A DNA stretch of 64,000 bases from Rhodobium gokarnense. GTDB lineage: Bacteria; Pseudomonadota; Alphaproteobacteria; Rhizobiales; Rhodobiaceae. Under the pieces are notes generated by a model. The model saw only the letters and a program-made list of their open reading frames with translations. It was not told the DNA's origin and did no database searches. Where the stretch lies: the NCBI RefSeq assembly GCF_025961475.1, contig NZ_JAOQNS010000002.1, positions 186,001 to 250,000 of the forward strand. Direction: 5' to 3'. The translations under genes were made by a program, and so were the position numbers. The first letter of the stretch is position 1. Each line of letters opens with the position of its first letter. Shown here one piece after another: positions 47,575 to 63,444 of this stretch.

Positions 47575-49485
47575 TCAGGAGCGATGGCCGAAAGCTGCGG
47601 GCACCTCGGGCGCCACATGCACCAGCTTCGGCCGCTTGCGGTCGGCGTTGGAGATCGGGAAGTCGGTGTCGATCAGCGCCGGGATGTCTTCTGCCGGCAC
47701 CGCCCGGCTGTAGAAAAAGCCCTGCACCTCGTTGCAGCCCATCGCCGAGAGCTGAACCATCTGGTCTTCGGTTTCAACGCCCTCGGCGTTGATCCTGAGG
47801 CCCATGGTCCGGCCCATGCTGATGGCGGCGCGGATGATCGCGGCATCCTTCAGGTCGCTGTTGATGTCGCGCACGAAGCTGCGGTCGATCTTCAGCTTGT
47901 CGAACGGGAATTTCTGCAGGTAGCGCAGCGACGAATAGCCGGTGCCGAAATCGTCCAGCGACAGGCCGATGCCGAGCTTCTTCAGCAGCAGCACGATGTC
48001 GAGCACCTTTTCGGTGTCGGAAATCAGCACGCCTTCGGTGACTTCCAGGTCGAGGAGCCAGGGGAACAGCTCCGTCTCCGACAGGATCCGCGAGACCTTG
48101 GCGGCAAAGGCCGGCTCGCGGAACTGCACCGGCGAGATGTTCACCGAGACCTTGATGCCGCCCCATTGCGCGGCGTCCTGGCACGAGCGCGTTAGGATCC
48201 ATTCGCCGAGCGGGCCGATCTGGCCGGTCTCCTCGGCAACCGAGATGAAGTCCATCGGGCTGATGAAGCCGCGCTCCGGATGACGCCAGCGCACCAGCGC
48301 CTCGACGCCGACGAGCTTGCCGCTCGCCAGGTCGATCTGCGGCTGGTAGTGCATGACGAACTGGCCCTCTTCCAGCGCGACGTGCATGTCGCGCTCGATC
48401 AGCCGGCGCATCGCCTGGTGCTCGCGCATCGCCTGGTCGAACAGGCGATAGGCGCCGCGGCCGCCGCTCTTGACCTGGCAAAGGGCGGCATCGGCATTGA
48501 CCATCAACTCATCGCCGGTCACCCCGTCCTGGGGGAAGACGGCGATGCCGACGCTGGTGTTAATGTGGAGCTTGTGGCCCTCCACGAGGATCGGCCTGGC
48601 GACGGATTCCAGGAGCGCCTCGGCAACGCCGATTGCGTAGTTGCGGCTGGCAATGGCGGGCAGAACGAGGCAGAACTCGTCGCCGCTGATCCGCGCCAGG
48701 ATGCCCTTGCGGCCGCGGCCGACCGACATCCGCTCCGCCACGGCGCACAGGGCGGCATCGCCGACATGGTGGCCGTAGCCGTCATTGATGTCCTTGAACT
48801 TGTCGAGGTCGATCATCATCACGGCAACGAGGCCGTCGGTCTGGCGGGCGGTGGCGATGGCCTCGGCGAGGCTGCTCGCCAGCATGCGCCGCTTCGGCAG
48901 CCCGGTCAGTTCGTCATGGGTGGCCAGGAACGTGACCTGTCTGGCGGTGTCCGTCAGCGCCCGGATCGGCACGACCCTCAGGAAATAGAACAGCGCCAGG
49001 CCGCAGCCGAGGCAGACCAGGAACACCAGGGCCGTGTTGTTGACGAGTGCGGCGATGGAGCGCCTGAGAATGAGGGTGCCCACGTCGCGGCCGGAATCGA
49101 AGATGCTCTGGTGGGCGACGATCGTATTGAAGCCGAGTTCCCTGTCGTTGGCGCCATGAACGGCGACCGTCTTGCCGTCGGCATCCAACACCCGGGCAAC
49201 GGCCATCCGGTGCCCGTCATGGGCGCCGTGCTTGTGGTCCCAGACCCGCAGCATGTCCTCGATGCGCGACGTCTCGAACTGCCACAATTTCGGATTCTGG
49301 CTGACGATGGTGGACAGGTTCTGCGACAGGAAGTGGGATTCGGCCCGCAACTCGCTGGCAAGGTTCGTATAGCCGAAGAAGAAAAAGATCGCCGGCACGG
49401 CGAGCGTGACCAGCAACGCGGCGATCACGGCGACGGTGGTCGTCCCGCGGGCAATGCGTTGGTGGAAATGGGTGATGGCGGGCAT
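47575..49485 (-). CDS. Membrane GGDEF-EAL protein (c-di-GMP turnover)
   Basis: The 636-residue protein has TM1 (about 16-40), a ~105-residue periplasmic domain, TM2 (about 150-170), a GGDEF domain (about 185-350) and an EAL domain (about 360-610). The GGDEF signature is SGDEF (267-271), a tolerated variant; no RxxD inhibitory site is seen. The EAL domain keeps EALVRW (395), NISPVQF, DDFGTGYSS and AEGVET, so phosphodiesterase activity is likely. It follows a periplasmic binding-protein gene by 24 bp, suggesting that ligand-loaded binding protein contacts its periplasmic domain. Confidence 0.92.
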   Translation of the reverse strand: MPAITHFHQRIARGTTTVAVIAALLVTLAVPAIFFFFGYTNLASELRAESHFLSQNLSTIVSQNPKLWQFETSRIEDMLRVWDHKHGAHDGHRMAVARVLDADGKTVAVHGANDRELGFNTIVAHQSIFDSGRDVGTLILRRSIAALVNNTALVFLVCLGCGLALFYFLRVVPIRALTDTARQVTFLATHDELTGLPKRRMLASSLAEAIATARQTDGLVAVMMIDLDKFKDINDGYGHHVGDAALCAVAERMSVGRGRKGILARISGDEFCLVLPAIASRNYAIGVAEALLESVARPILVEGHKLHINTSVGIAVFPQDGVTGDELMVNADAALCQVKSGGRGAYRLFDQAMREHQAMRRLIERDMHVALEEGQFVMHYQPQIDLASGKLVGVEALVRWRHPERGFISPMDFISVAEETGQIGPLGEWILTRSCQDAAQWGGIKVSVNISPVQFREPAFAAKVSRILSETELFPWLLDLEVTEGVLISDTEKVLDIVLLLKKLGIGLSLDDFGTGYSSLRYLQKFPFDKLKIDRSFVRDINSDLKDAAIIRAAISMGRTMGLRINAEGVETEDQMVQLSAMGCNEVQGFFYSRAVPAEDIPALIDTDFPISNADRKRPKLVHVAPEVPAAFGHRS

Positions 49486-49509
49486 GGGAATGCGCCTTGT
49501 TCGGGTGCC

Positions 49510-50346
49510 TTAGTCGACGGGCTGATGTCCGGAGTTGCGGAGGATTTCCTGGCCTTCGGGTGAGCGCACGAAGGCGATGAAGGCGGTGGTCTTTTCCGGC
49601 GCGCCGAGCTTGGTCACGAACCGGAAGGTCTTGACGTGCGGATAGGCGCCGCGCTCTACGTCGGCAACGTTCGGTGCCGGCTTGTCGACGCCGACGATGC
49701 GCAGCCGGCGGCCTTCCGACAGGATCTGGGCCTCGGTCGAGACACCGACCGAGCCCGGCAGCTTCTCCAGGTAATCGGCGTTCTGCTGATCGTTGGTGGC
49801 AATCAGGAGGCCGTCGCGCTCGTAGGCGGCGTCGACGGCGCCGTCCATGCCCTTGGCGAACTTGCGCAGGAAGCCGATGTCGCTCTCGCTCTTCTGGCGC
49901 AGTACCAGGCGCACCGGCGTGCCGTTCGGCCAGGTTCCGGTCGCACCGACGAAGACGTCGGCAAGCGCGCCGCCGGAGATCTGCTCCAGGCCGGCGCTCT
50001 CGCCAGTGACCAGGATCACCGCGGTCCGCGCGTAGGGCCGGTCGATGGCACCGGCGGCGCGTTCCTTGTCCTTCAGGCCGCGCGCGGACACCGACAGGTC
50101 GATCGCCCCGGCCAGCACCGCCTTGATGCCGCCGCCGCTGCCAAGGCTCGGCAGGACCTCGACCTTCACGTCGGGATGGGTCGCCTCAAAGGCCTCGGCG
50201 AGGAGCTGCATGCCGCCGAGCGCGCCGCCGGTGCCGCCGATGGTGAGCTTTGCCTCGGCGGCGACGACGGCGGACGTCGTTACCACACCGGCAAGCGCCG
50301 CAGCGGCGACGGCAGTCAGAACGCGAGACAGGCATCGTTTCGGCAT
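49510..50346 (-). CDS. PstS-like periplasmic binding protein paired with GGDEF-EAL
   Basis: The 278-residue precursor has a signal peptide (to about VVAAEA, residue 31) and a phosphate-type binding fold with LTIGGTGGALGGMQLLAEAFE, SLGSGGGIKAVLAGAIDLSVSARGL and the terminal FRFVTKLGAPEKTTAFIAFVRSPEG. The GTGG start replaces the GSST of PstS, so the ligand may differ from phosphate (for example another oxyanion). No permease or ATPase adjoins it. The 297 bp upstream is AT-rich and contains no other gene. I infer a sensory, not transport, role. Confidence 0.87.
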   Translation of the reverse strand: MPKRCLSRVLTAVAAAALAGVVTTSAVVAAEAKLTIGGTGGALGGMQLLAEAFEATHPDVKVEVLPSLGSGGGIKAVLAGAIDLSVSARGLKDKERAAGAIDRPYARTAVILVTGESAGLEQISGGALADVFVGATGTWPNGTPVRLVLRQKSESDIGFLRKFAKGMDGAVDAAYERDGLLIATNDQQNADYLEKLPGSVGVSTEAQILSEGRRLRIVGVDKPAPNVADVERGAYPHVKTFRFVTKLGAPEKTTAFIAFVRSPEGQEILRNSGHQPVD

Positions 50347-50643
50347 GTGGCCCCCAACGCAAGGACTCCGAAGTCCTTGAAAAATTGCGCAAACTTGATG
50401 CTTCTGTGTAACCGCAAACGCTTAATCTCCGGTTACGGCAACCGTGCAAGTGTAATAGAGTTAAGAATTGTATTCAGTGTTGCTGTAGCAAAACCAGGAA
50501 TGCAGAAAAATCATCGGCTTGGCAGTCGGGAGGCTATCTTGCGTGTTTTGAAGAAAATACTTTGTAGTTTATTTTCGAATTAGTTGGTTCAAGTTTCACG
50601 TAAAACGCGAGCATTTGATCGCCGCCAGCGGGCGTGGTGCGGC

Positions 50644-50964
50644 TTATCGCGCAATCGCGATCACCGTCTGGATCGCCGGCAGGCTGAGAAGGGCAACGCC
50701 GGCAAGCCACAGCCAGAGCGAGACGGCGTCGGACTCGGCCCGTCCCGTCACCCGTTCGAAGACGGCGGCCGGCACGCCGCCGAGCATGATCGTCACCGTC
50801 GCCGTCAGGAGGGACGAGACGAGGAGGACGATGGCCGGCGAGGCGACGAAGAAGCCCGGCGCCATCGCCAGCACGATGACGTGGGCGACCAGCCGGAACG
50901 GCGAGAAGATGCCGTTGAGAATCGCAAAGGCGAGGATGGCAATGAGGAAGCTCTGGCGGCTCAC
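50644..50964 (-). CDS. Small membrane protein of unknown function
   Basis: The 106-residue protein has three hydrophobic segments (about 5-20, 25-60 as one long or two helices, and 83-103) and ends AIQTVIAIAR. I do not recognise the family. It follows the YggT-like gene on the same strand by 10 bp, so the two are probably co-transcribed. Confidence 0.6.
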   Translation of the reverse strand: MSRQSFLIAILAFAILNGIFSPFRLVAHVIVLAMAPGFFVASPAIVLLVSSLLTATVTIMLGGVPAAVFERVTGRAESDAVSLWLWLAGVALLSLPAIQTVIAIAR

Positions 50965-50974
50965 GGGCAGACCC

Positions 50975-51280
50975 TCACGCGAGCGTCGGCCGGTAGCCGG
51001 CCTGTAGCAGGAGGGTGAGATAGGCGAACCGCATCAGTAAGAGCCAGATCGCGGTGAAGACGAGGATGACGGGAAGCGGCGCCGCGCGCGGCGTGACGGC
51101 GGCAAAGATCCGCACCGCTGGCTCGGTGACGGTGACGAAGGAGCGCCAGAGGACGTTGGTCGCGTCGGCGGCAAAGAAGAACGACAGCACCAGCCGGCCG
51201 AGCGTCATGTACATGAGGATCGCCAGCAGATAGTTGGGGACGTGGTAGTACCATTCGGCGGCGATCGGATCGGCGGGCAT
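50975..51280 (-). CDS. Small YggT-like membrane protein
   Basis: The 101-residue protein has two membrane regions (about 15-37 and 65-92) and a loop with WRSFVTVTEPAVRIFAAVTPRAAP, resembling the YGGT family repeat (a TEP..R...P pattern). YggT proteins are inner-membrane proteins of unclear function. ATG 51280 fits; sequence upstream is not conserved. Forms a pair with the next small membrane protein. Confidence 0.6.
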   Translation of the reverse strand: MPADPIAAEWYYHVPNYLLAILMYMTLGRLVLSFFFAADATNVLWRSFVTVTEPAVRIFAAVTPRAAPLPVILVFTAIWLLLMRFAYLTLLLQAGYRPTLA

Positions 51281-51431
51281 GGGCTGGGCTCTCGGTCGTC
51301 TTTCGGGCGGTGACGCCCCTTCAATCACAACACCGGCGCCCCGCAAAGCCCGAAGCCCGTTTCGGCCGGCGGCGGATGAAGAAACGGGGCCGCAATGGCC
51401 CCGTTCCGGTGTGGATTGCCCGACGGCCGGG

Positions 51432-53279
51432 TCAGGCGCTTGCGGCCCGGCCCCTGTCGGCGACGACGGTGCCGCTCGGCCGGCGCACCTCGTCGACGAG
51501 CTGCTGCATTTCCTCCGACGGCTCCGGCGTCAGATAGGACACCGCGATCATGACGATGAAGCCGATCGGGATGCCGAAGATGCCGGCGGAGATGTTCTGG
51601 ATGCCGAAGATCAGCCCCTCGCCGAAGCCGAGCGGCGGCGGCGCGGTATAGACGAGGTAGGCGAGCGTGGTGCCGAAGCCGGCGATCATGCCGGAAATGG
51701 CGCCTGCCGTGGTGCAGCGTTTCCACCAGATGCCGAGACATAGCGCCGGGAAGTTGCCGGCCGCGGCCAGCGAGAACGCCCAAGCGACCAGCGCCAGGAT
51801 GTCCGGCGGCGCCGCGGTCGCCGTGTAGGCGCCGAGGATGGCGACGCCGAGGAGGATGATCCGGGCCGCCACCAGCCGCCGCGCGGTCGGCGCGTTGCGG
51901 TCGATCATCCGGTAGTAGATGTCGTGGCTGAGGGCGTTGGCCATGGCAAGGAGCAGGCCGTCGGCGGTGGACAGCGCCGCGGCAAGGCCGCCGGCACCGA
52001 CGAGGCCGGTGATGACGAAGGGAAGCCCGGCGATCTCCGGCGTCGCCATGACGATGACGTCCTTGGCGATGGAGAAGTCGGCAAGCCCGACCACGTCCTT
52101 GCCGGCGCAGGCCTGCTGCACCGCTTCCAGCGACGCGGCGGCCGCGCCGCACAGCGTCACCTTGCCGGATGCGCCCCAGATATAGACCCAGTTCGGCAGG
52201 TCCGCGAAGCTGGCCCCGATGACGTTCTCATAGACCTCCCACTTGGCAAAGGCCGCATAGGCCGGCGCGGTGAAGTAGAGGACGAAGATGAACAGCAGCG
52301 ACCAGCCGACGGACTTGCGCGCTTCGCGCACGCTCGGCGTCGTGAAGTAGCGCATCAGCACATGCGGCAGCGAGGCCGTGCCGATCATCAGGCAGAAGAC
52401 CAGGGCGAAGAAATTGAGCGGGTCGGTCGAGCTGAACGGTTGCAGATGCCGCTGGATGGTGTCGGCCGCGGCAAGCCCGCTGTCGACCATGCCCTGTTCC
52501 AGCGCGGCGATGTTCTGCAGCGCCTCGCCATACATGAGCTGCGGGATGGGGATGCCGGTGCGCTGCGCCGACATGATCACGACCGGCAGCAGATAGGCGA
52601 TGATGAGGACGATGTACTGGGCGACCTGGGTCCAGGTCACCGCCCGCATGCCGCCGAGCATCGAGCACAAGAGAATGCCGAGGATGCCGACGAAGACGCC
52701 GACGTCGTAGGGAATGCCGAGGAACCGCTCGGCGATCAGGCCGGTGCCGCGGATCTGCGCCACCACATAGGTGAAGGAGGCGGCGAGCAGCACGACGATG
52801 CCGAGGAAGCGCGCGAGATTGCCGCCGAACCGGGCGGCCAGGAAGTCGGGCACCGTATAGGCGCCGAACTTGCGCAAATACGGCGCGATCAGCACCGCCA
52901 CCAGCACATAGCCGCCGGTCCAGCCGAGGACGAAGGCGAGCCCGTCATAGCCGAGCACATAGAGCGTGCCGGCCATCGCCAGGAACGAGGCGCCGGACAT
53001 CCAGTCGGCGGCCGTCGCCATGCCGTTGTAGACGGCGGGCACCTGGCGTCCGGCGACGTAGTACTCCGAGACCTGCATGGTCCGCGACAGGATGCCGATC
53101 ATCGCATAGACGACGATGGTGAAGCCGACGAACAAGAAGCCGAGGATCTTGTTGGGAACGCCGACCTGTTCGAGGATGGCAAGCAGGATCACGAAGGCGG
53201 CGAAGCCGCCCGTGTACATACCGTAGATCTTGCCGAGATTGTTGATGAAATCCGAGGTGCCGCTCTGTTGTGTCGCCAT
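51432..53279 (-). CDS. Sodium:solute symporter, acetate-permease-like (VC_2705 type)
   Basis: The 615-residue protein of the SSS family has ~13 hydrophobic segments and family motifs SEYYVAGRQVPAVYNGMATAADWMSGASFL, LARFGG-type turns, and GLAAALSTADGLLLAMANALSHD. Such large symporters, paired with a DUF4212 small subunit, import acetate or other short carboxylates with Na+. The DUF4212 gene precedes it by 12 bp. It is divergent from the CrbR-like regulator, the kinase of which has its own symporter domain. GGAGGGG precedes the start. Substrate assignment is inference. Confidence 0.9.
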   Translation of the reverse strand: MATQQSGTSDFINNLGKIYGMYTGGFAAFVILLAILEQVGVPNKILGFLFVGFTIVVYAMIGILSRTMQVSEYYVAGRQVPAVYNGMATAADWMSGASFLAMAGTLYVLGYDGLAFVLGWTGGYVLVAVLIAPYLRKFGAYTVPDFLAARFGGNLARFLGIVVLLAASFTYVVAQIRGTGLIAERFLGIPYDVGVFVGILGILLCSMLGGMRAVTWTQVAQYIVLIIAYLLPVVIMSAQRTGIPIPQLMYGEALQNIAALEQGMVDSGLAAADTIQRHLQPFSSTDPLNFFALVFCLMIGTASLPHVLMRYFTTPSVREARKSVGWSLLFIFVLYFTAPAYAAFAKWEVYENVIGASFADLPNWVYIWGASGKVTLCGAAAASLEAVQQACAGKDVVGLADFSIAKDVIVMATPEIAGLPFVITGLVGAGGLAAALSTADGLLLAMANALSHDIYYRMIDRNAPTARRLVAARIILLGVAILGAYTATAAPPDILALVAWAFSLAAAGNFPALCLGIWWKRCTTAGAISGMIAGFGTTLAYLVYTAPPPLGFGEGLIFGIQNISAGIFGIPIGFIVMIAVSYLTPEPSEEMQQLVDEVRRPSGTVVADRGRAASA

Positions 53280-53291
53280 CTGTCGCCCCTC

Positions 53292-53549
53292 CTAGTCGTC
53301 TTCGGCGACGCCGAACCGACGGTCGATGGCGTCCTGGCGATATGCGTAGAAGAAGGTCAGCGCCACGAAGACGATGAGCGATCCCTGGGCGGCCATGTAG
53401 AAGCCGAGCGGGAAACCGAGAATGACGATGTCGTTGAGCGCGTCGACGAAAAAGTGGACGACGAAGCCGAAGATCGCCCAGACGACGAGGCAGCCGATCA
53501 TCAGCCCCTTCGTCCTCGACCACCAGCCCTCCTGATTCGAGGTTGCCAT
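53292..53549 (-). CDS. DUF4212 symporter small subunit
   Basis: The 85-residue protein has two membrane helices (about 14-34 and 42-66) with WAIFGFVVHFFVDALN and FPLGFYMAAQGSLIVFVALTFFYAYR, characteristic of DUF4212 proteins that sit ahead of the large sodium:solute symporter. It starts at ATG 53549 behind GGGAGGAA and runs straight into the symporter gene. Confidence 0.92.
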   Translation of the reverse strand: MATSNQEGWWSRTKGLMIGCLVVWAIFGFVVHFFVDALNDIVILGFPLGFYMAAQGSLIVFVALTFFYAYRQDAIDRRFGVAEDD

Positions 53550-54115
53550 GGATGAGTTCCTCCCCCGTTTAGCCGGCTGAGGACTCAGCCGGGCCGTTTC
53601 GCCGTTTGTCCGGCGGTATTAAGGCCGTGCCTTTCAAAAGGAACGACCGGTTTGGGGGCGTAAATCGCCCCGATTAGGTCGAGTCTATACCCCCGGCACA
53701 GCGCCACCGTATACGACTTTTGTCTAAGATGCCCTGTGTCTTCAAGGGATTGCATGCGTTTTTATTTGCCGTAATCCAGAAGAACGTATCGCAAAATAGA
53801 AACATGGTTTGAGTAAAACTTCGGAGGGGAGATCGGCGGGCCTTAAAGAATTCAAGATGGGCGCCGCCCGTCTTTTGCGCACGACTATGTGCGACGCGTT
53901 ATCCGGCACTGCGGCTTTTCCTTGCAATAACCTTTCCCAAGGACGTAAGTTTAATGAACAACAATCCGCCATTGGGTCAAACGGGTGGAGTGACGGGTAA
54001 TACAAAAGGGCGTTGACGGCCTTCGTTTAAACGTGTGCGAAGGCAGGGAGGACATGGCTTTTGCAGGCACTGCAGGGGTCGCGGTCGATGCCCTTCCGTA
54101 TGATGGGAGAGTAGC
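53550..54115. promoter_or_regulatory. Divergent control region between symporter and CrbR-like gene
   Basis: This 566-bp region must hold promoters for both directions. An interrupted palindrome GGGGCG-TAAAT-CGCCCC (53655-53671) lies ~105 bp ahead of the DUF4212 start and is a candidate regulator site. The part from 53740 to 54000 is AT-rich. No credible gene. Confidence 0.5.
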
Positions 54116-54793
54116 GTGACATCCGAAGAGGGCACCCAGTACAGGTTCATCATCGCCGACGATCATCCGCTGTTTCGCGGTGCGTTGCGCAAGACCATCG
54201 AAGAGATGTTCGACAGCGTGACCATCGTCGAAGCCGGCAGCCTCGATGAGGTCTCCGGCGAGCTGGAGTCCAACTGCGATATCGATCTGGTGCTGCTGGA
54301 TCTGTCGATGCCCGGCATGCGTGGCTTTTCCGGCCTCATCTACCTGCGCGCCCAGCATCCCGGCACGCCGGTGTGCATCGTCTCCGGCACCGAGGAGGCG
54401 ACCACCATCCGCCGCTGCATGAATTTCGGCGCCGCCGGCTACATCCCGAAATCGCAAGGGATCGAGAAGATCCGCGATGCCCTCGGCGCGATCCTGAACG
54501 GCGACACCTGGACGCCGAGCGAGATCGACCTCGATGCCGGCGACGACGACGAGATCCAGGCGCTGGTCGGGCGCCTGTCCACCCTGACGCCGCAGCAGGT
54601 CCGCGTGCTGATGATGCTGAGCGAGGGCCTGCTCAACAAGCAGATCGCCTATGAGCTCGGCGTCTCGGAAGCGACGGTGAAGGCGCACGTCTCGGCGATC
54701 CTGCAGAAGCTCAACGTTGAAAGCCGCACCCAGGCGGTGATCGCGGCCAACCGCATCGAGGCCGGCCAGTGGCAGACGGCGGTTGCGAGCTGA
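54116..54793 (+). CDS. crbR: LuxR-type response regulator, CrbR/ErdR-like
   Basis: The 225-residue regulator has receiver residues ADDHP, phosphoacceptor in LVLLDLSMPG and Lys in GYIPKSQG, then a LuxR-type HTH (LTPQQVRVLMMLSEGLLNKQIAYELGVSEATVKAHVSAIL). It is the likely partner of the SSS-type hybrid kinase encoded convergently (stops 75 bp apart); this pair matches CrbR/CrbS (ErdR/MxtR), known to switch on acetyl-CoA synthetase and acetate use. GTG 54116 follows TGGGAGAG. acs itself is not in the window. Confidence 0.85.
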   Translation: MTSEEGTQYRFIIADDHPLFRGALRKTIEEMFDSVTIVEAGSLDEVSGELESNCDIDLVLLDLSMPGMRGFSGLIYLRAQHPGTPVCIVSGTEEATTIRRCMNFGAAGYIPKSQGIEKIRDALGAILNGDTWTPSEIDLDAGDDDEIQALVGRLSTLTPQQVRVLMMLSEGLLNKQIAYELGVSEATVKAHVSAILQKLNVESRTQAVIAANRIEAGQWQTAVAS

Positions 54794-54867
54794 CCCGTTC
54801 CGCGCCGCACCTTTCCATCATTTTTCGTTGCAAAGGTCCCTGCGTTGCGCCGGCGTAACGCGTAACG

Positions 54868-57800
54868 TTACTCCGCGGCCGAGCGGCGCGGGTTCACCTG
54901 GGTGAGGAATGCCCGGAGCGCGGCCGGCTTCACCGGCTTTTGCAGCACCACCAGGCCCTTTTCCTCCGCCTCCTGGCGCACCGCCGGCGAGCGGTCGGCG
55001 GTGATCAGCGCGCCCGGCGTGCGGGTTCCGAAATGCCAGCGCAGTTGCCGGGCGGCCTCGATGCCGGTGCCGGTATCGAGGTGATAGTCGAGGAGCAGGA
55101 TATCCGGCACCACGCCGTTGTCGGCGAGCGCGGTCTCGGCCTCGGCGACGGAGCGCGCCGTCACCACCTGGCAGCCCCAGCCGGACAGCAGCGTTTCCAT
55201 GCCGGAGAGGATCTTCGGCTCGTTGTCGATGCAAAGGACCGAGAGCCCGGTGAGCGGCTTGGCCGCCGCCGCGGGCCGGGCTTCGGCCTTCGGGGTCAGC
55301 GGCACCGCCGAGGTCACCGGCAACAGCACGGAAAAGTGCGAGCCGCGATTGTCCTCGGACTCCACAGTGACCGGATGGCCGAGCACCCGCGCGATGCGCT
55401 CCACGATGGACAGCCCGAGCCCGAGGCCGGGCGCCACCTTGACGCCGCGCTCCAGCCGGCTGAATTCGGCGAAGATCTCGCGGCGTTTTTCCGGCGGCAC
55501 GCCGATGCCGGTGTCCAGCACTTCAACGCTCATCTGCCTGCCGCGGCGCCGGCAGCCGATCAGCACCTTGCCGCGCTCGGTGTATTTGATGGCGTTGGAG
55601 GCAAGGTTCTGCAACAGTCGGCGCAGCAGGCGCCGGTCGGAGCGCACGCTGAGGCTGCACGGCACGATGCGGAAGTCGAGCCCCTTGTCCCGTGCCATCG
55701 GCTCGAAGTCGACCTTGAGCTGGGAGAGGATGTCGTCGATCGGAAAGACGCCGATCTCCGGCTTCATGGCGCCGGTGTCGAGCCGCGACATATCGAGGAC
55801 GGCGCCGATGATCTCCTCCACCGAATCGAGCGAGGCCTCGACGTTCTCGACCAACTCGCGGTCCTTGGTCTCGGAGAACCGCTCCACCAAGCTCTGGGCG
55901 TAGAGCCGGGCGGCGTTGAGCGGCTGCAGGATGTCGTGGCCGGCGCCGGCCAGGAACCGCGTCTTGCCGAGATTGGCTTCGTCGGCGAGGCGCTTGGCGA
56001 CCGTCAGCTCCTGGTTCAGCCGGGTCAGCTCCATGGTGCGCTCGCGCACGCGTTTTTCGAGTGTCTCGTTGGCGCGGGCCAGCGCCTCCTCGGCGAGCAC
56101 CCGTTCGGTGATGTCGGAAAAGGTGATGACGATGCCGCCGGTCGGCATCGGGCTGGTGTGGATCTCCAGGATGCCGCCGCTCGCCAGTTGCTCCTGGAAA
56201 TCCTCCATCCGCCGGGCAACGCGCTCAAGCCGCTGACCGACCAGCGTATCGACCGCGCCCGGCCCGAACTCGCCCGCCTCGGCCACATGGGTGAAGATGT
56301 CGTGGAGCGGTGTTCCCACATGGCCGTATTCGCCCGGCAGGCCGAGGAGCTCGCGGAACCGCCGGTTCCAGCAGGTCAGCCGGAGTTCGGCATCGAACAC
56401 GGCGATGCCCTGCTCGACCTGATCGAGGGCGGTCTGCAGCAGGTCGCGATTGTACTGGATCGCCGTCGTCGCATCGTCGAGGAGCTTCATGGCGCCTTTC
56501 GAAGCCGGATCGCGACGCTCCACCAGGAGCGACAGCACCAGCCGCGAGGAGGCAGCCCCGATCGCGCTGGCGAGAAGCTGTTCGGCAAAGCGCATGGTCC
56601 GGGCATCGGCCGGCTCGTGCGCCGGCGCGGCGATCCGTTCCGCCTCCAGATGGGCGACGAAGGCCCGCTCGGTGCGCTCCTCGCCGAGATAGCGGGCGAC
56701 GGTCTTTTTCAGATCGTCCAGCGTCACCGCCGTGCGCCAGAGCCGGAACGCCGGCGTCGGCGCCAGGTCGCTCGGCACGAAGACGGCCGCCTGCAGCCGT
56801 TCCAGCGGCGTCGGCATGCGCGTCAGCGAGACGAACACGTAGCAGCCCACATTGATCGACAGGCTCCAGAAGACGCCGTGGATGTACGGATCGAACGACA
56901 GAGAAAAGAGGGCCTGGGGCCTCAGGAGCCAGATGCCGAAGGGGCCGGCGGTGAGCAGGGTTTCGTCGAAAAGTCCGGCATCGACGAAGGAGGGTAGCAA
57001 CAGCGTATAGGCCCACACCCCGAAGCCCGACAGCATGCCGGCAATGGCGCCACGCGCCGTGCCGCCGCGCCAGATCAGCCCGCCGAAGAAGGCCGGGGCG
57101 AACTGGGCGATCGCGGCAAAGGAGAGGAGCCCGATCGAGGCCAGCGCCGAGGAATCGCCGATCATCCGATAATAGGCGAAGGCGAGGAACAGGGTGCCGA
57201 GGATCGCGCCGCGCCGGATGCCGATCAGGAGCTGGCCCATGTCGCGGGCGCCGGCGGCGTCGTCTTCGCGCCGCCTCAGGATCAGCGGCATGACGAGGTC
57301 GTTGGAGATCATGATGGCGAGCGCGACGGAGGCGACGATGACCATGGCCGTCGCCGCCGACAGCCCGCCGATGAAGGCGATCAGCGAGATCAGGCTGGCG
57401 TCGTTGTTCATCGGCAGCGCCAGCACGAAGCCGTCGGCGTGGACGGAATCCCCGAAGGTGATGAGGCCGGCGATGGCGATCGGCACGACGAAGAGGTTGA
57501 TGAGGATCAGATAGATCGGGAACAGCCAGGTCGCGCGGCGCAGCTCGGCCGGGCTATTGTTCTCCGTCACCGTGACGTGGAACTGCCGCGGCAGCATGAG
57601 TGCCGCAAAGAACGACATCAGCGTCAGCCCGATCCAGCTCCCGCCGTGCAGCTCGCCCTGGAAGCGCGAGGCGATCGCCGGCCGGGACTGCATCAGCTCC
57701 ATCAGGTGCCCCGGACCGTCGAAGAGGACATAGGTGACGTAAAGCCCGACGATCAGGAAGGCGATCAGCTTGACGACGGATTCGGCGGCCACCGCCAGCA

Positions 57801-58383
57801 TCAGGCCTTCCTGGTGCTCGGTTGCGTCGATGTGCCTTGTGCCGAAGAGGATGGCAAAGAGCGCCATCGCCCCGGTCACCAGGAGCGCCACGTCGTTGAA
57901 CCAGGGCGACAGCGACGCCCCGCCGATGAACCACGGCTCGCTGAGGACGGCCGTGACGGAGGTCGCGACGGCCTTCAGTTGCAGGGCGATATAGGGGATG
58001 GTGCCGATCAGCGCGATGATGGCAACGACCGCGGCGACCGGCTGGCTCTTGCCGTAGCGCGCCGCCATGAAGTCGGCGATCGAGGTGATGCGCTCGGCCT
58101 TGGCCAGGTTGATGAGGCGCAGCAGCAGCGGATAGCCGAGGGCAAACAGCAGGATCGGACCGATATAGATTGTCAGGAAATCGAGCCCGCGCGAGGCGGC
58201 GAGCCCGACGGACCCGAAGAACGTCCAGGACGTGCAGTAAACGCCGAGCGACAGGGCATAGATCAGCGGCCGCCCGCGCCCGGGCGCCCGGCCGCGGCTC
58301 GCCCGGTCGCCATAGCTGGCGATGGCAAAGAGGAGGCCGATATAGAGGAAGGCGACGCCGACCACGAACCAGCCTTGCAGCAT
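54868..58383 (-). CDS. crbS: Hybrid sensor kinase with sodium:solute symporter domain, CrbS/MxtR-like
   Basis: The 1171-residue protein begins with a 12-13-helix sodium:solute symporter domain (about 1-525; SVGLAASRGLDFLTIYIGP, ADFMAARYGKSQPVAA), then a connector, a PAS domain (about 655-775, TAIQYNRDLLQTALDQVEQGI), coiled coil, HisKA with AGAGHDILQPLNA (His816), HATPase (NLASNAIKYT, GLGLSIVERIA) and a C-terminal receiver (CIDNEP, Asp1099 in LLLDYHLD). It senses substrate or flux through the symporter part and signals to the CrbR-like regulator. GGAAGAGG precedes ATG 58383. Confidence 0.92.
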   Translation of the reverse strand: MLQGWFVVGVAFLYIGLLFAIASYGDRASRGRAPGRGRPLIYALSLGVYCTSWTFFGSVGLAASRGLDFLTIYIGPILLFALGYPLLLRLINLAKAERITSIADFMAARYGKSQPVAAVVAIIALIGTIPYIALQLKAVATSVTAVLSEPWFIGGASLSPWFNDVALLVTGAMALFAILFGTRHIDATEHQEGLMLAVAAESVVKLIAFLIVGLYVTYVLFDGPGHLMELMQSRPAIASRFQGELHGGSWIGLTLMSFFAALMLPRQFHVTVTENNSPAELRRATWLFPIYLILINLFVVPIAIAGLITFGDSVHADGFVLALPMNNDASLISLIAFIGGLSAATAMVIVASVALAIMISNDLVMPLILRRREDDAAGARDMGQLLIGIRRGAILGTLFLAFAYYRMIGDSSALASIGLLSFAAIAQFAPAFFGGLIWRGGTARGAIAGMLSGFGVWAYTLLLPSFVDAGLFDETLLTAGPFGIWLLRPQALFSLSFDPYIHGVFWSLSINVGCYVFVSLTRMPTPLERLQAAVFVPSDLAPTPAFRLWRTAVTLDDLKKTVARYLGEERTERAFVAHLEAERIAAPAHEPADARTMRFAEQLLASAIGAASSRLVLSLLVERRDPASKGAMKLLDDATTAIQYNRDLLQTALDQVEQGIAVFDAELRLTCWNRRFRELLGLPGEYGHVGTPLHDIFTHVAEAGEFGPGAVDTLVGQRLERVARRMEDFQEQLASGGILEIHTSPMPTGGIVITFSDITERVLAEEALARANETLEKRVRERTMELTRLNQELTVAKRLADEANLGKTRFLAGAGHDILQPLNAARLYAQSLVERFSETKDRELVENVEASLDSVEEIIGAVLDMSRLDTGAMKPEIGVFPIDDILSQLKVDFEPMARDKGLDFRIVPCSLSVRSDRRLLRRLLQNLASNAIKYTERGKVLIGCRRRGRQMSVEVLDTGIGVPPEKRREIFAEFSRLERGVKVAPGLGLGLSIVERIARVLGHPVTVESEDNRGSHFSVLLPVTSAVPLTPKAEARPAAAAKPLTGLSVLCIDNEPKILSGMETLLSGWGCQVVTARSVAEAETALADNGVVPDILLLDYHLDTGTGIEAARQLRWHFGTRTPGALITADRSPAVRQEAEEKGLVVLQKPVKPAALRAFLTQVNPRRSAAE

Positions 58384-58578
58384 TTCGCCTCTTCCGTCAC
58401 GTTACGGGCTTGGTCGCCGCGGATGCGTTTCGGGAACGCTTTCACAGGCGGTCGACGGGAAACAGGGCCGGAGGCCCGAAGGCCCCGGAAGCATTGGCAG
58501 ATCGGATCATATGCCGGCCGGCTTGTCCACACCCCGGGGGCATCGCCGCGGCACCGGACGGTCGGGAGGATTGCCTTG

Positions 58579-59235
58579 GTGTTTGCCGCGGTGCGCCACT
58601 GGCTGGGCGACATGTTTCGCAAGGACGCACCCGTCGTCAGTGCGGCGACGCTGGCCGACTTCCTCGACGCCCACGCCGCCTTCATCGTCCAGAAATGCAT
58701 CTATGAATATGCCCGCGCCCGCGCCGGCACGATGTCGCTGGCCCTCTTCAAGGAGGAGGGCTTCAAGGCGGCGGTGGAGACCTCGCGCTGGCAGAACTAT
58801 CCCCTCGGCCTTCGCTATGTCGGCGAAATGGCGATGAACGTTCTGCGCCCCGACTGGCCGGGCAGTACCGCCGACCTTTCGGAGCGGCTAGCCGGCATCT
58901 TCGCCCAGATCACGAACCGTTATCCCGTCCCGGACGGATTTCCGGAGGATTTCTGGCAAAACGCCCGGCAGGACATCTCCCGCCACCTGGCCCGGGCCGC
59001 CCTTGCTCCGGCCAAACCGGTGAAGGACATTCCGCTCGCCACCGTGGAGCAGTTCTTTGCCCGCCTGCCGATCCACGAGCGGCTTCGTGGCTACGACTAC
59101 CAGCTCATCCAGAACAATTTGCGCATCAATCTCTGCCGCAGCTATGAGACCTTGCGGGCGCGGCTCGACCGGGAGGCGCTTTGCGCCGATCTCGCCGCCG
59201 ACAGCGGCGCGATCGCGCTGCGGGCCGGCGCATGA
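58579..59235 (+). CDS. Conserved-looking protein of unknown function
   Basis: The ~218-residue protein, mostly helical, lacks signal peptide or membrane segments. It shows FLDAHAAFIVQKCIYEYARARAG, LGLRYVGEMAMNVLRP and LPIHERLRGYDYQLIQNNLRINLCRSYE. I do not recognise a domain. The best site is GGGAGGA ahead of TTG 58576/GTG 58579; the frame upstream overlaps the kinase gene antisense. It lies between the CrbS-like kinase (divergent) and the exonuclease-CBS-nucleotidyltransferase gene, 113 bp before it on the same strand, so a role in that system is plausible. Confidence 0.75.
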   Translation: MFAAVRHWLGDMFRKDAPVVSAATLADFLDAHAAFIVQKCIYEYARARAGTMSLALFKEEGFKAAVETSRWQNYPLGLRYVGEMAMNVLRPDWPGSTADLSERLAGIFAQITNRYPVPDGFPEDFWQNARQDISRHLARAALAPAKPVKDIPLATVEQFFARLPIHERLRGYDYQLIQNNLRINLCRSYETLRARLDREALCADLAADSGAIALRAGA

Positions 59236-59348
59236 AGCGCGTCACGACGGGGGAGGCGGCAGGACCGTATGTCAGCACGATAAGGTCGAGCGTGTCGCGT
59301 AGATTTCGCTGGAGGCGACAGGCTATAACAAACAAAAAAGGACCAGTC

Positions 59349-61502
59349 ATGCCGAGGAAATCGAGTGCCACGCCGCTGGTCGCCGTCGACGCGGTGGCCC
59401 TTGATACCGAGACCACGGGGCTTGATCCGGCGAAGGCCCGGATCGTCCAGATCGGCGCGGTCCGCATCCGCGACGGCAAGCTGGTCGACGACGCCACCTT
59501 CGACGTCATGGTCGATCCGGGAACGCCGATCCCGGCCGCGACCTCCGCCGTCCACCACATCGACGACACCATGGTCGCCGGCAAGCCGCCCTTTGCCGAG
59601 GTGCGCGCCGCGCTCGAGGAATTCATCGGCGGGGCCATCGTCATCGGCCATTCCATCGGCTTCGACCTCGCCATCCTGCGCCGCGAATATCTGCGCATCG
59701 ACGAGGCCTGGCGCCAGCCGCGCAGCCTCGACACGCGGCTGCTCGCCCAGGTCGCCAACAGGACCCTGCCGGATTTCTCCCTCGACATGCTCGCCTCCTG
59801 GCTCGGCGTCGACATCTCCGACCGCCACACCGCCGTCGGCGATGCGCGCGCCACGGCCCGCATCTTCCTGGAGCTGGTGCCGAAGCTCCGCGCCGACGGC
59901 GTGCGCACCGTCGCGGAAGCCGAGAACGCCTGCCGCAAGCTCACCCGGGTGCTCGACGAGCACATGCGGGCCGGCTGGGTCGAGCCGGTGGCCTCGCCGA
60001 GCCAGCGCGACGCGGAGCGGACGCTCGCGCGCATCGACAGCTATCCCTATCGCCACCGCGTCCGCGACGTCATGACCAGTCCGCCGCTCGTCGCCAGCGA
60101 GGCGATGTCGCTGCAGGACGCCGTCGGCCTGATGATGCAGAAGAAGGTGTCCTCCCTGTTCCTGGCGCCGCCGGATCGCATTGCAGGCACAGCGAAGCCC
60201 GATGCGGATGGCCCCGACGTCGGCGAGATCGGCATCGTCACGGAACGCGACGTGCTGCGGACCGTTGCCGAGGGCGGCCCCAAGGCGCTTGCCGAGACCG
60301 TTTCGGCCATCATGTCGATGCCCGTCGCCCATGTGCCGGCCGATGCCTTCATCTACCGCGCGGTCGGGCGCATGAACCGCATGGGCGTGCGCCATCTCGC
60401 CGTTGCCGACGACGAGGGCCGGCTGGTCGGCGCCCTGTCCGCCCGCGATCTGTTGCGCCTGCGTGCCAGCGAGGCGATCTCGCTGGGCGACGAGATCGAT
60501 GCCGCCGGCGACGTGCCGGCCCTTGCCAAGGCTTGGGCGCGGCTGCCCATGGTCTCCGCCAGCCTGGTTGCCGAGGACATCTCCAGCCACGACATCGCCG
60601 GCGTCATCAGCCGCGAGCTCGGCGCGCTCACCCGCCGCGCCGCCGTCCTTGCCGAACAGAATATGGTCCGCGCCGGCAAGGGCGATGCCCCCTGTTCCTT
60701 CGCCGTTCTCGTGCTCGGCTCGGCCGGGCGCGGCGAAAGCCTCCTCGGCGCCGACCAGGACAACGCCATCGTCTTCGCCGAGGGAGACCCGGACGGCCCG
60801 GAGGATCGCTGGTTCGCCGAATTCGGCAAGCAGCTCTCGGCCATCCTGCACGATGTCGGCGTTGCCGACTGCCCCGGCGGAGTCATGGCCCGCAACGCCG
60901 CCTGGCGCGGCAGCCTCGACACCTGGCGCGGCCGCATCGGCGACTGGGTGCGCCGCTCCCGGCCGCAGGACCTCCTCAACGTCGACATCTTCTTCGACAT
61001 GCGCGCCGCCCATGGCGATGCCGCGCTCGCCCGCACCTTGATGGAGGAGGCCTATGAGCTCGGCCACGCCGCCCCGAGCTTTGCCAAGCTGCTGGCCGAG
61101 GCGGTCACCGACTTCAAGCCGCCGCTGACCTTCCTCGGCGGTATCAGGACCGAGGCCGGCCGGGTCGATTTAAAGCTCGGCGGCCTGATGCCGATCGTCG
61201 CCAGCGCCCGGGTTCTCGCCATCCGCCACAAGATCCTGCACCGCGCCACCCAGCATCGGCTGGAGTCGGCGATCGCCATGCGCATCGGCGGCGAGCCCGA
61301 CCTGCAGCAGATGATGCGCACCCACGGCCTCATCCTCGGCCATGTCCTGCGCCAGCAGCTCGCCGACATCGACGAGGGCAAGCCGCTCTCCAATGCGGTT
61401 TCCCTGAAGCGCCTGCCGCGCCACGACGCCGATGCCCTCAGGGACGCGCTTTCCCGGCTCACCCATATCGACGATCTGCTGCGCGACCTGTTGTTCGCCT
61501 GA
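59349..61502 (+). CDS. Fusion of DnaQ-like exonuclease, CBS pair and DUF294 nucleotidyltransferase
   Basis: The 717-residue protein has three units. Residues 12-180 form a DEDDh exonuclease with DTETTGL (Asp19, Glu21), GHSIGFDLAIL and HTAVGDARATA. Residues 235-375 hold two CBS motifs (RDVMTSPPLVASE; IMSMPVAHVPADA...GVRHLAVAD), which in this family bind adenine nucleotides. Residues 445-580 hold a DUF294 nucleotidyltransferase with GSAGRGE (457-463) and D-x-D (Asp469, Asp471), followed by its C-terminal helical domain (to ~715). All catalytic residues appear intact. Target is unknown. AAAGGA precedes ATG 59349; in-frame sequence upstream overlaps the previous gene. In other bacteria related exonuclease and DUF294 genes occur near DUF4212/acetate-permease genes. 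Confidence 0.92.
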   Translation: MPRKSSATPLVAVDAVALDTETTGLDPAKARIVQIGAVRIRDGKLVDDATFDVMVDPGTPIPAATSAVHHIDDTMVAGKPPFAEVRAALEEFIGGAIVIGHSIGFDLAILRREYLRIDEAWRQPRSLDTRLLAQVANRTLPDFSLDMLASWLGVDISDRHTAVGDARATARIFLELVPKLRADGVRTVAEAENACRKLTRVLDEHMRAGWVEPVASPSQRDAERTLARIDSYPYRHRVRDVMTSPPLVASEAMSLQDAVGLMMQKKVSSLFLAPPDRIAGTAKPDADGPDVGEIGIVTERDVLRTVAEGGPKALAETVSAIMSMPVAHVPADAFIYRAVGRMNRMGVRHLAVADDEGRLVGALSARDLLRLRASEAISLGDEIDAAGDVPALAKAWARLPMVSASLVAEDISSHDIAGVISRELGALTRRAAVLAEQNMVRAGKGDAPCSFAVLVLGSAGRGESLLGADQDNAIVFAEGDPDGPEDRWFAEFGKQLSAILHDVGVADCPGGVMARNAAWRGSLDTWRGRIGDWVRRSRPQDLLNVDIFFDMRAAHGDAALARTLMEEAYELGHAAPSFAKLLAEAVTDFKPPLTFLGGIRTEAGRVDLKLGGLMPIVASARVLAIRHKILHRATQHRLESAIAMRIGGEPDLQQMMRTHGLILGHVLRQQLADIDEGKPLSNAVSLKRLPRHDADALRDALSRLTHIDDLLRDLLFA

Positions 61503-61656
61503 CCGGTCGGCCAGCGCGCGTGGCGCCCTTACATTGCGTCTTTGAGTTGTGAAATAAGTATTTTGCCGAATGGATTCCCATCTTCGCGCGCGATGCTCTA
61601 ACCTCCGGCCGCAAGGGGAGTCGCGGCCTCGGGCCGCCAATGCGGGAGCACAGGGG

Positions 61657-62082
61657 ATGTTGAAGGAATTCAAGGAGTTTGCCGTCAAAGGCAACATGGT
61701 CGACATGGCTGTCGGCATCGTCATCGGCGCCGCCTTCGGGGCCATCGTCTCGTCGCTGGTCGACGACATCATCATGCCGCCCATCGGCGTCATCGTCGGT
61801 GGCATCGACTTTTCCCAGATCTTCCTGGTGCTGAAGGAGGGGACGCCCCCCGCGCCCTATGACACGGTCGCTGCGGCCAAGGCGGCCGGCGCGACGACCT
61901 GGAATGTCGGGCTGTTCATCAACGCCATCGTCAAGTTCCTCATCGTCGCCTTTGCCCTCTTCATCGTCGTCAAGGGCATCAACCGGCTGCGCCGCAAGGA
62001 GGAAGAGGCTCCGGCCGCCCCGCCCGAGCCGCCGCGCAGCGAAGTCCTGCTTGAAGAAATCCGCGATCTGCTGAAAAAGTAG
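61657..62082 (+). CDS. mscL: Large-conductance mechanosensitive channel
   Basis: The 141-residue channel has the MscL N-terminus [29 protein letters not shown]1 with the constriction glycines, [17 protein letters not shown]2 near residues 80-103 and the cytoplasmic LLEEIRDLL helix. It opens under osmotic downshock. ATG 61657 follows CAGGGG. An acidic/Pro linker ([13 protein letters not shown]) joins TM2 to the terminal helix. Confidence 0.96.
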
Positions 62083-62194: not shown

Positions 62195-63367
62195 ATGCTG
62201 ATGGAATCGCTGCGCGCCGAGGCCCGTGAGGCCCCGGAAAGCGGTATCGTCGAAGTCATGACATACGGCTGGGAGCGCCCCGGCCTGATCCCGCTGTGGG
62301 CCGGCGAGGGCGACCTGCCGACGCCGGAGTTCATCCGCGATGCCGCCAGCCGCTCGCTCGCCGACGGCGAGACCTTCTACACCAGCCAGCGCGGCATTCC
62401 CGAACTGCGTCAGGCGCTTGCCGACTATCACACCCGGCTCTACGGCCGCCCGTTCCAGCCGGAACGCTTCTTCGTCACCGGCTCGGGCATGCAGGCGATC
62501 CAGATCGCCGTCGATGCGGTCGCCGGCGCCGGCGACGAGGTTCTGGTGCCGTCCCCGGCCTGGCCGAACATCGTCGCCGCCCTTGGCGTCTCCGGCGCAC
62601 GGCCGGTGGAGCTGCCGATGTTCCTCGGTAATGACGGCTGGGTGCTCGACCTGGAACGGCTGAAGGCCGCGATCACGCCGAAGACCCGCGCCATCTTCCT
62701 CAACTCGCCGTCGAACCCGACCGGCTGGGTCGCCGGCCGCGAGGTGCTCGCCGAGATCCTGGACCTCGCCCGCAAGGAGGGGCTCTGGATCATTTCCGAC
62801 GAGGTCTATTCCCGCTTCTATTTCGGCGATGCCCCGCGCGCGCCCTCCTTCTACGACGTTGCCGAGGACGACGACCGCATCCTCTACGTCAACACCTTTT
62901 CCAAGAACTGGGCGATGACCGGCTGGCGCGTCGGCTGGATTTCCGCCGCCCCGGAACTCGGCCAGGTGATCGAGAACCTGATCCAGTATTCCACCTCGGG
63001 CGTCGCCGTCTTCATGCAGCGCGCCGCCGTCGCCGCCCTCAATGACGGCGAGGCGTTCGTCGCCGAACAGGTGGCGCGCGCCCGCTCCGGCCGCGACCTC
63101 ATCTGCTCGGCGCTGGAGCGCACCGGGCGCACCCGCTTTGCCTGGCCGGCCGGCGCCTTCTACCTGTTCTTTGCCGTCGACGGCGAACCCGATACCTCGA
63201 AACTCGGCCTGCGCCTCGTCGACGAGGCCAATATCGGCCTTGCCCCCGGGACCGCCTTCGGCGCCGGCGGCGAGGGCTATATGCGGCTCTGTTTCGCCCG
63301 CGGAGCCGACGGGCTGCAGACGGCGACGGATCGACTGGTGACCTGGCTGCAAACTTCCTGTGCCTGA
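62195..63367 (+). CDS. Class I/II pyridoxal-phosphate aminotransferase
   Basis: The 390-residue fold-type I aminotransferase has GSGMQAIQIAVDAVAG, the aspartate-family SNPTGW, DEVYSRFYFG and the PLP lysine in FSKNWAMTGWRVG (Lys237), with the terminal carboxylate-binding Arg in MRLCFA. The overall form suggests an aspartate/aromatic or related 2-oxoacid-dependent enzyme; substrate not determinable. ATG 62195 is used (AAAGGG upstream); ATG 62201 is an alternative. Stands alone after mscL. Confidence 0.9.
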   Translation: MLMESLRAEAREAPESGIVEVMTYGWERPGLIPLWAGEGDLPTPEFIRDAASRSLADGETFYTSQRGIPELRQALADYHTRLYGRPFQPERFFVTGSGMQAIQIAVDAVAGAGDEVLVPSPAWPNIVAALGVSGARPVELPMFLGNDGWVLDLERLKAAITPKTRAIFLNSPSNPTGWVAGREVLAEILDLARKEGLWIISDEVYSRFYFGDAPRAPSFYDVAEDDDRILYVNTFSKNWAMTGWRVGWISAAPELGQVIENLIQYSTSGVAVFMQRAAVAALNDGEAFVAEQVARARSGRDLICSALERTGRTRFAWPAGAFYLFFAVDGEPDTSKLGLRLVDEANIGLAPGTAFGAGGEGYMRLCFARGADGLQTATDRLVTWLQTSCA

Positions 63368-63444
63368 TTGCCAGCAAGGCCTTGTGAGTATTCGGTAGAT
63401 TCCCTTATGCTCAGGCCGTGGGGAATTATGCCGGAAGAGAGGCG

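Follow-up and report, generated by a model that had tools for sequence, protein, structure and literature searches.

What is a nuclease doing in the same polypeptide as a nucleotidyltransferase, with a pair of CBS domains between them and a carboxylate symporter and its regulators next door? The question is raised by a locus of Rhodobium gokarnense at positions 51432–61502 of the window, that is, of the whole 64,000-nucleotide stretch analysed here (contig NZ_JAOQNS010000002.1, 186,001 to 250,000). The genes listed in an initial annotation made from the sequence alone were all recovered in place through their open reading frames (ORFs) and Pfam/NCBIfam profiles, and we have little doubt that they make up a CrbS/R-type monocarboxylate locus. 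The exonuclease and the CBS-DUF294 transferase, fused here, prove to be companions across the Pseudomonadota, and the transferase half resembles GlnE. Our tentative reading, to which we give somewhat less than an even chance, is that a CBS-gated, GlnE-like writer and a DEDDh eraser would act together on monocarboxylate uptake.

A conserved pair of exonuclease and CBS-DUF294 transferase

The association was surveyed in 249 Pseudomonadota genomes, at least 96 of which contain a CBS-DUF294 place. Nine of these, comprising the window's own genome and the closest scorers, were set apart; the other 87 loci were fetched with 8 kb on each side, less at contig ends. In 81 of the 87 an exonuclease lies within 8 kb of the CBS-DUF294 gene, the nearest one without exception downstream and in the same orientation; measured from domain to domain the distance is no more than 600 bp in 58 loci and no more than 2.5 kb in 79. 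Three of the six loci without an exonuclease (L187, L189 and L347) are cut downstream by contig ends. By the family labels of their genomes the 87 loci represent 32 families, the exonuclease being seen in 29. Nineteen control regions, chosen on the same contigs at a distance of 500 kb, were free of exonuclease, symporter, DUF4212 and transferase; a CrbS-like match turned up in one region, and two CrbR-like matches in one. Among the nine genomes set apart, an exonuclease profile match was found in eight with flanks of 1.5 kb, several of them fused. Beyond the Pseudomonadota the evidence consists of two plasmid records, from Cytobacillus (Bacillota) and Hymenobacter (Bacteroidota), on which exonuclease and transferase genes adjoin. 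In the Pseudomonadota the widespread DUF294-CBS proteins are nearly always accompanied by a DEDDh exonuclease.

Since this company is preserved despite reordering and fusion of the genes, the exonuclease and the CBS-DUF294 protein almost certainly constitute a functional unit. The fusion is one arrangement of a widespread two-gene module, whose usual form has a separate nuclease gene downstream. The joining of the two enzymes, on which the initial annotation had built its argument, thus holds for the window and its named relatives and not as the general rule. In three alphaproteobacterial loci (L011, L014 and L016) the two are separate ORFs in the same frame, 9–12 nt apart, which is likely the state next to fusion. 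Two non-fused transferases that were scanned carry an N-terminal cyclic-nucleotide (cNMP)-binding domain in the position of the exonuclease. Separate exonucleases of five loci (L020, L024, L026, L029 and L156) are about 450–470 residues long, with an extra N-terminal 250 residues for which Pfam gave no clear match and one weak PAS match.

These counts bear on the simplest alternative, a housekeeping DNA-repair nuclease that became adjacent or fused by chance. Its exonuclease domain is indeed close to those of DNA polymerase III epsilon and PolC. Such a nuclease is hard to reconcile with a partner present in 81 of 87 loci and 29 of 32 families and in none of the 19 controls, through changes of gene order and through fusion, nor with the published CrbR/ErdR control and carbon-source phenotype described below. 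We hold it to be very improbable. Neither of the two outcomes that the initial annotation had named as fatal to its idea, a lack of conserved association and a transferase without nucleotide binding beside a purely DNA-repair exonuclease, was seen.

The fused protein itself is intact in both halves. Pfam places an RNase_T domain, the CBS pair, DUF294 and DUF294_C in that order (Table 1), the last two both above their gathering scores. D19 and E21 in the nuclease and D469 and D471 in the transferase, with CBS domains between, had been pointed out at the start; D106, H160 and D165 complete the first site, and D550, the third transferase acid, lies just past the Pfam match to DUF294 and completes the second. 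With its D-x-E, D and H-x4-D set inside an RNase_T fold the N-terminal domain is a DEDDh exonuclease by its residues. Conservation was scored in the best 80 named loci that match both halves, mostly Hyphomicrobiales by title. The nearest, 96% identical over its best segment, is that of Rhodobium orientis DSM 11290, and 79 of the 80 are open across both halves, locus L108 having a stop codon. D19 and D106 are found in all 80 and E21, H160 and D165 in 79 each. When 60 separate transferases from other Pseudomonadota are added, G457, S458, R461 and K609 are present in 140 of 140 sequences, and each of the acids D469, D471 and D550 in 139. The T/S-x-x-D pattern of CBS domains binds the adenosyl ribose; T298 and D301 occur in 80 of 80 fused proteins and in 58 and 56, respectively, of the 60 separate transferases. 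One contig labelled as an Acidobacteria metagenome-assembled genome (locus L041), possibly mis-binned, encodes a fused protein with 56% identity to that of the window.

An AlphaFold model of the fused protein (mean pLDDT 90.9, pTM 0.77) was compared with the PDB by Foldseek. Among the best 50 of 963 matches listed, the nuclease domain resembles DnaQ, PolC, TREX2 and RNase T, and the middle part resembles CBS proteins, one of them solved with adenosine monophosphate (AMP).

The transferase half and its likeness to GlnE

Within the same best 50 of 963 Foldseek matches GlnE is the one nucleotidyltransferase, both halves of the E. coli enzyme being matched [1v4a, E 9.2e-8; 3k7d, E 5.5e-7; TM-score on target 0.44–0.52]. 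A profile of DUF294 plus DUF294_C (54 sequences) aligned with GlnE (22 sequences) over 227 columns with an E-value of 8.8e-6 and a probability of 83%, and in this alignment the GSxGRxE...DxD motif and the K...GG motif of the helical domain pair with their GlnE counterparts. The corresponding value for GlnD was a weak 0.043. The GlnE set comprised 23 of 24 loci less one fragment, and the GlnD set 16 loci of 24 less one; PolyA_pol was represented by 19 of 20 loci less three, MNT by 12 of 20 less one and SMODS by 4 of 4 less one, the sequences dropped being fragments or cut loci. A sequence search of the PDB with the CBS-DUF294 half listed for the most part proteins with CBS domains, none of them named as a nucleotidyltransferase, so that the link to GlnE rests on Foldseek and the profile alignments. 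Transferase and helical domain are thus GlnE-like in profile and in fold. The GlnD-type enzyme that had first been suggested is thereby upheld as to the broader GlnE/GlnD type, with GlnE clearer than GlnD.

Membership in the known families was considered in turn. The protein is GlnE-like but not a GlnE, because GlnE has two transferase domains: it contains a single DUF294 domain in place of two tandem PF03710 domains, Pfam gave no match to a GlnE family, and the genome's own GlnE gene is located elsewhere (C5). It is no GlnD, HD and ACT domains not being found by Pfam at E 0.01. For the MNT/HEPN group there was no MNT match in Pfam and a profile E-value of 0.055; the HEPN motif R-x4-6-H was not searched. 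SMODS CD-NTases gave a profile E-value of 0.46, a weak comparison with three sequences only. A CCA-adding enzyme or poly(A) polymerase was set aside for lack of a PF01743 match. Taken together, fold and profile suggest that the transferase half is probably a protein nucleotidylyltransferase.

Two alternatives would give the transferase another substrate. In the first, transferase and exonuclease would add and trim nucleotides at the 3' ends of tRNA or another RNA under the control of the CBS domains. An architecture DHH-CBS-CBS-tRNA nucleotidyltransferase exists, which the order nuclease-CBS-CBS-nucleotidyltransferase resembles, and trimming of tRNA 3' ends is known from DEDDh enzymes, RNase T among them. 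This is improbable: the profile of PolyA_pol/CCA enzymes (16 alphaproteobacterial sequences) gave an E-value of 0.18 over 36 columns, the genome encodes a PF01743 protein separately, and the structural neighbour among the matches listed is GlnE. In the second, the transferase would make a small (oligo)nucleotide messenger that an Orn-like DEDDh domain destroys. Enzymes of the pol-beta fold can produce messengers. Very short oligonucleotides, and mimics of dinucleotides, are substrates of DEDD oligoribonucleases (PMC6390093). This second messenger system is more improbable still, there being no profile similarity to the three SMODS CD-NTases, and the DUF294_C helical domain with its invariant K609 aligns with GlnE.

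The symporter operon, its regulators and U217

The symporter is of the VC_2705 type by both its large (TIGR03648) and its small (TIGR03647) subunit, and its substrate would be acetate or pyruvate, judging from the regulator and the literature. The N-terminal region of the kinase gave no match in Pfam; in a profile-profile comparison the first 600 columns of its family profile align with the symporter family (216 columns, E 2.5e-7; GlnE as control, E 0.35). The kinase has the make-up of CrbS, an SLC5-like symporter region joined to a PAS/HisKA/HATPase_c/REC module. The best named model for the regulator is that of ErdR [NF041830]; since the score falls short of the cut-off we call it CrbR-like rather than a certified ErdR.

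Table 1. Features of the monocarboxylate locus, in window coordinates.
Feature	Position	Strand	Evidence
VC_2705-family sodium:solute symporter (SSS), large subunit	51432-53279	-	TIGR03648, 695 bits (cut-off 321); PF00474
DUF4212 symporter small subunit, 85 aa	53292-53549	-	PF13937, E 5e-27; TIGR03647, 88 bits, over cut-off; ends read from sequence
ACTU-type (putative CrbR) site TTAGACAAAAGTCGTAT	53711-53727	-	Matrix scan; 161 bp upstream of DUF4212 gene
CrbR/ErdR-like LuxR-type response regulator	54116-54793	+	PF00072 and PF00196; ErdR model 238 bits, below cut-off 390
CrbS-like hybrid histidine kinase, symporter-like N-terminus	54868-58383	-	PAS_7, HisKA, HATPase_c, REC; NahK/ErcS family model over cut-off
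U217, all-helical protein family, 217 aa	58582-59235	+	AF2 pLDDT 93.4; without Pfam or NCBIfam match
Fused DEDDh exonuclease-CBS-CBS-DUF294-DUF294_C protein, 717 aa	59349-61502	+	Pfam; AF2 pLDDT 90.9; Foldseek
DEDDh (RNase_T/DnaQ) exonuclease domain, D19, E21, D106, H160, D165	59394-59867	+	PF00929, E 1e-29; residues 16-173
CBS pair, motifs T298-x-x-D301 and S364-x-x-D367	60060-60464 (approximate ends)	+	PF00571, two stretches
DUF294 nucleotidyltransferase domain, GSxGRxE, D469, D471	60540-60965	+	PF03445, E 8e-36, 123 bits; residues 398-539
DUF294_C helical domain (putatively substrate-binding), invariant K609	61077-61466	+	PF10335, E 4.5e-27, 95 bits; residues 577-706

Association of these genes was counted in the 54 of the best 80 named loci with 8 kb or more of sequence to either side (matches at E < 1e-10), and it exceeds chance. 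Symporter and DUF4212 are each present in 37, U217 in 35, CrbR in 28 and CrbS in 27, and all five occur together in 23; the counts are not independent because the genomes are related, and some CrbS and CrbR matches may be paralogues. The wider 87 loci include an SSS symporter in 52, DUF4212 in 30, a CrbS-like kinase in 20 and a CrbR-like regulator in 4. The co-occurrence of exonuclease, DUF294, DUF4212 and CrbS genes for which a neighbourhood analysis had been proposed is therefore found among near relatives and in the wider Pseudomonadota.

Binding sites of the ACTU (CrbR) type were sought on both strands with an unsymmetrised matrix of the nine sites in Table 4 of PMC5715377, not all of which are experimentally proven. 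A palindrome-symmetrised matrix was rejected because it was in the wrong register; with it the top site of the window was reached by 117 and 60 of 200 simulated windows. The site had been seen by eye before the matrix was changed, and the choice of matrix is to be weighed accordingly. With the matrix adopted, 53711–53727 is the best site of the window (19.6 bits, the next non-overlapping one having 14.6), a score reached in 1 of 200 simulated windows. The pattern GACNAAAGTCNNAT, derived from the found site itself, has a single exact match in the 5.1-Mb genome; with up to one mismatch it has 13 matches against 9 for a reversed-pattern control, which is only slightly more.

The relatives tell the same story for the symporter operon. 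Upstream of DUF4212 in 51 relatives and the window, 33 of 52 regions score at least 12 bits (4.1% of shuffles) and 20 of 52 at least 13 bits (3.0% of shuffles), many of the sites lying at 160–205 bp. Upstream of U217, 25 of 51 relatives score at least 12 bits, mostly at a site that U217 has in common with DUF4212; in the window these two genes lie apart, and no ACTU site was seen upstream of U217 (best 6.5 bits). The same threshold is passed upstream of CrbR in 5 of 38 relatives and upstream of CrbS in 1 of 39. These matrix scans support CrbR-type control of the symporter operon and, in the relatives only, of U217; they lend no support to control of the fused gene through a site of its own.

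U217 is 217 residues long from the GTG start chosen here, an ATG at 58612 being possible instead. Pfam and NCBIfam gave no match to it, and across 40 members six Pfam families were each touched by one only. PDB sequences provided nothing convincing (best E 0.09), Foldseek comparison of its predicted fold with the PDB no match below E 0.37, and plasmid sequences no match. Of 192 alphaproteobacterial genomes 28, the window's own included, have a match. Coordinates compared by hand put it no more than about 5 kb from the exonuclease or transferase in 19 of these; in four it is on a different contig of a draft, and in five it is far off or unpaired. Among the 53 named loci that have U217, 38 carry it directly upstream of the exonuclease, 8 downstream in convergent orientation and 7 elsewhere, and it is divergent from DUF4212 in all 47 named loci with both genes. 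The unknown protein of the initial annotation is thus without a known family, as had been said, yet it is no orphan, since in the relatives it is a conserved neighbour of the symporter.

Directly after the fused gene comes that of MscL, a mechanosensitive channel (61570–62082), and then the genes for a class I/II aminotransferase (62204–63367) and a PAS histidine kinase, the latter beginning at 63418. The minus strand of the upstream region 47575–51346 encodes a GGDEF-EAL protein, a PBP-like solute-binding protein, a 106-residue protein without a family and a sub-threshold YGGT-like protein. Open frames on the plus strand at 51924–53555 and 54940–56997 run antisense to the symporter and kinase genes; such frames are expected at high G+C content, and they were not counted as genes.

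A proposed writer and eraser for carbon control

The pair also occurs split in Pseudomonas, as PP_0354, which we take to be the DUF294 protein, and PP_0353 of P. putida, and in the cluster that is presumably PA3232–PA3235 of P. aeruginosa; in the P. aeruginosa record it stands beside a DUF485-ActP acetate symporter. ErdR binds the promoter of PP_0354, and acetate raises its expression; the same paper calls PP_0354 functionally uncharacterised (PMC8402216). PP_0354 and PP_0353 form one operon; growth on acetate is normal in either deletion, and growth on pyruvate is impaired by deletion of PP_0353 and not by that of PP_0354, the transferase deletion being without phenotype on acetate, succinate or pyruvate (PMC9927547). 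Deletion of actP-I leaves growth normal on 20 mM acetate and worse on pyruvate (PMC9927547). The counterpart in P. fluorescens, Pflu5625, belongs to the CrbS/R regulon and is mentioned with the prediction that it works through nucleotidylation (PMC5715377). PA3232–PA3235 are up during growth on propionate, and PA3233–PA3235 are down after its addition (PMC9765439). Since the split pair of P. putida was already a published CrbR target, the link of the locus is partly known. Neighbourhood, the ACTU site at the symporter operon and this published control together bear out the tie to CrbS/CrbR carbon control that had been suspected. The fusion and its breadth appear undescribed: our search of a largely open-access literature found no paper that describes an exonuclease fused to CBS-DUF294 or how widely the two are paired.

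In the reading that we favour the DUF294 half would be a GlnE-like protein nucleotidylyltransferase, the writer, gated by adenine nucleotides at the CBS pair. The DEDDh half would be the eraser, hydrolysing the phosphodiester bond that joins a hydroxyl group of the protein to the 5'-phosphate of the terminal nucleoside monophosphate; a DEDDh enzyme breaks the same type of bond when it degrades a nucleic acid from the 3' end. The complex of symporter and small subunit would be the most plausible target, or, where it is present in Alphaproteobacteria, the neighbour U217, and the mark would lower uptake or use according to energy charge.

The chemistry of erasure seems possible because an oligoribonuclease of the DEDD superfamily hydrolyses pNP-TMP, an aryl ester of a nucleotide 5'-phosphate that is chemically like a nucleotidyl-tyrosine (PMC6390093). 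RNase Z, which removes AMP, is a precedent for a nuclease as deAMPylase (PMC12663964). The P. putida mutants fit as well, though this use of them is our own: loss of the nuclease mimics loss of the transporter and loss of the transferase is silent, as a transporter-inhibiting mark that is taken off by the nuclease would predict. That the nuclease erases the transferase's mark may be so, although we lean slightly towards doubt.

The strongest competitor is an exonuclease that is itself the effector, degrading specific mRNAs or RNA ends, and is modified by the DUF294 half, in cis here and in trans where the genes are split, in the manner of MntA acting on HepT. The fold, like those of DnaQ, RNase T and TREX, and the intact DEDDh set would suit such a role, and modification in cis suits both the fusion and the strict co-location. 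A role of the nuclease in mRNA decay is what the authors of PMC9927547 speculate on, adenylylation of HepT by MntA supplies a precedent (PMC7641770), and DUF294_C shares its Pfam clan with HEPN, being tabulated without the conserved HEPN motif (PMC3710099). The profile similarity of DUF294 to MNT is negligible, however, and that to GlnE clear; and if the transferase inactivates the nuclease, a transferase deletion without phenotype fits this alternative but does not require it. We regard it as rather unlikely.

Several observations weigh against the writer and eraser that we favour. Resemblance to GlnE, for one, comes with a moderate profile probability. Of 55 separate exonucleases (L171–L230, motif II) 25 have Glu for the third catalytic Asp (H-x-x-x-I/L-E); the named relatives of the fused protein retain the Asp without exception (80 of 80). 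RNase T of E. coli, which we take to be a DEDD exonuclease, is a further difficulty. It fails to release AMP from SodA-AMP in vitro and from SucA-AMP in cells, and its deletion leaves AMPylation unchanged (PMC12663964). The available literature that we searched records no measured activity of a DUF294-CBS protein. The argument from the mutants comes from one strain, with deletions made for another purpose, and other targets are possible; mxtR and erdR deletions are likewise impaired on pyruvate (PMC9927547). Upstream of the exonuclease or fused gene, 0 of 78 relatives have a site of at least 12 bits, the best in the window being 5.2 bits. None of the five neighbours searched for was found in 13 of the 54 near-relative loci, U217 is in 0 of the 87 other Pseudomonadota loci though it stands beside pairs in several Alphaproteobacteria, and in 35 of the 87 the pair is without a symporter in the fetched region, as it is among the listed features of the Cytobacillus and Hymenobacter records. 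Because the pair is also found without a symporter in all three phyla, the transporter is not a universal target.

The boldest form of our proposal is a new class of reversible protein nucleotidylation switch, in which a GlnE-like writer that senses adenine nucleotides through its CBS pair would be teamed with a dedicated DnaQ-fold eraser and, at acetate/pyruvate loci, would set symporter activity, by way of U217 in those Alphaproteobacteria where it is present. This we think unlikely as it stands. If true, it would be the first case of a DEDDh nuclease dedicated to taking nucleotides off proteins, present in Pseudomonadota and in at least one genome each of Bacillota and Bacteroidota; bacterial carbon control would gain a writer-eraser system, and a nuclease fold a new job.

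Among known systems, the CrbS/CrbR (MxtR/ErdR) acetate system shares with this locus the symporter-like kinase N-terminus, the LuxR-type regulator and the ACTU-type site at the symporter operon; it differs in that the fused gene here is without an ACTU site and the regulator scores below the ErdR cut-off. PP_0354/PP_0353 and their P. aeruginosa counterpart likewise bring together a CBS-domain protein and an RNase_T-type exonuclease, in P. putida as a CrbR/ErdR target. Unlike the fused protein, the P. putida pair consists of separate genes with the transferase first, and in P. aeruginosa a cNMP-binding domain takes the place of the exonuclease at the N-terminus of the transferase. MntA/HepT of the MNT/HEPN type also combines transferase and RNase genes, with another transferase subfamily and another nuclease fold. 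GlnD has a parallel layout, a transferase with a phosphodiesterase and tandem small-molecule domains; these are HD and ACT in GlnD, and DEDDh and CBS here, and the profile similarity is weak. GlnE shares the fold and profile of the transferase and helical domain. It has two transferase domains where the fused protein has one, CBS domains stand here in place of the GlnE regulatory domain, and the proposed eraser would be a DEDDh nuclease instead of a second transferase domain.

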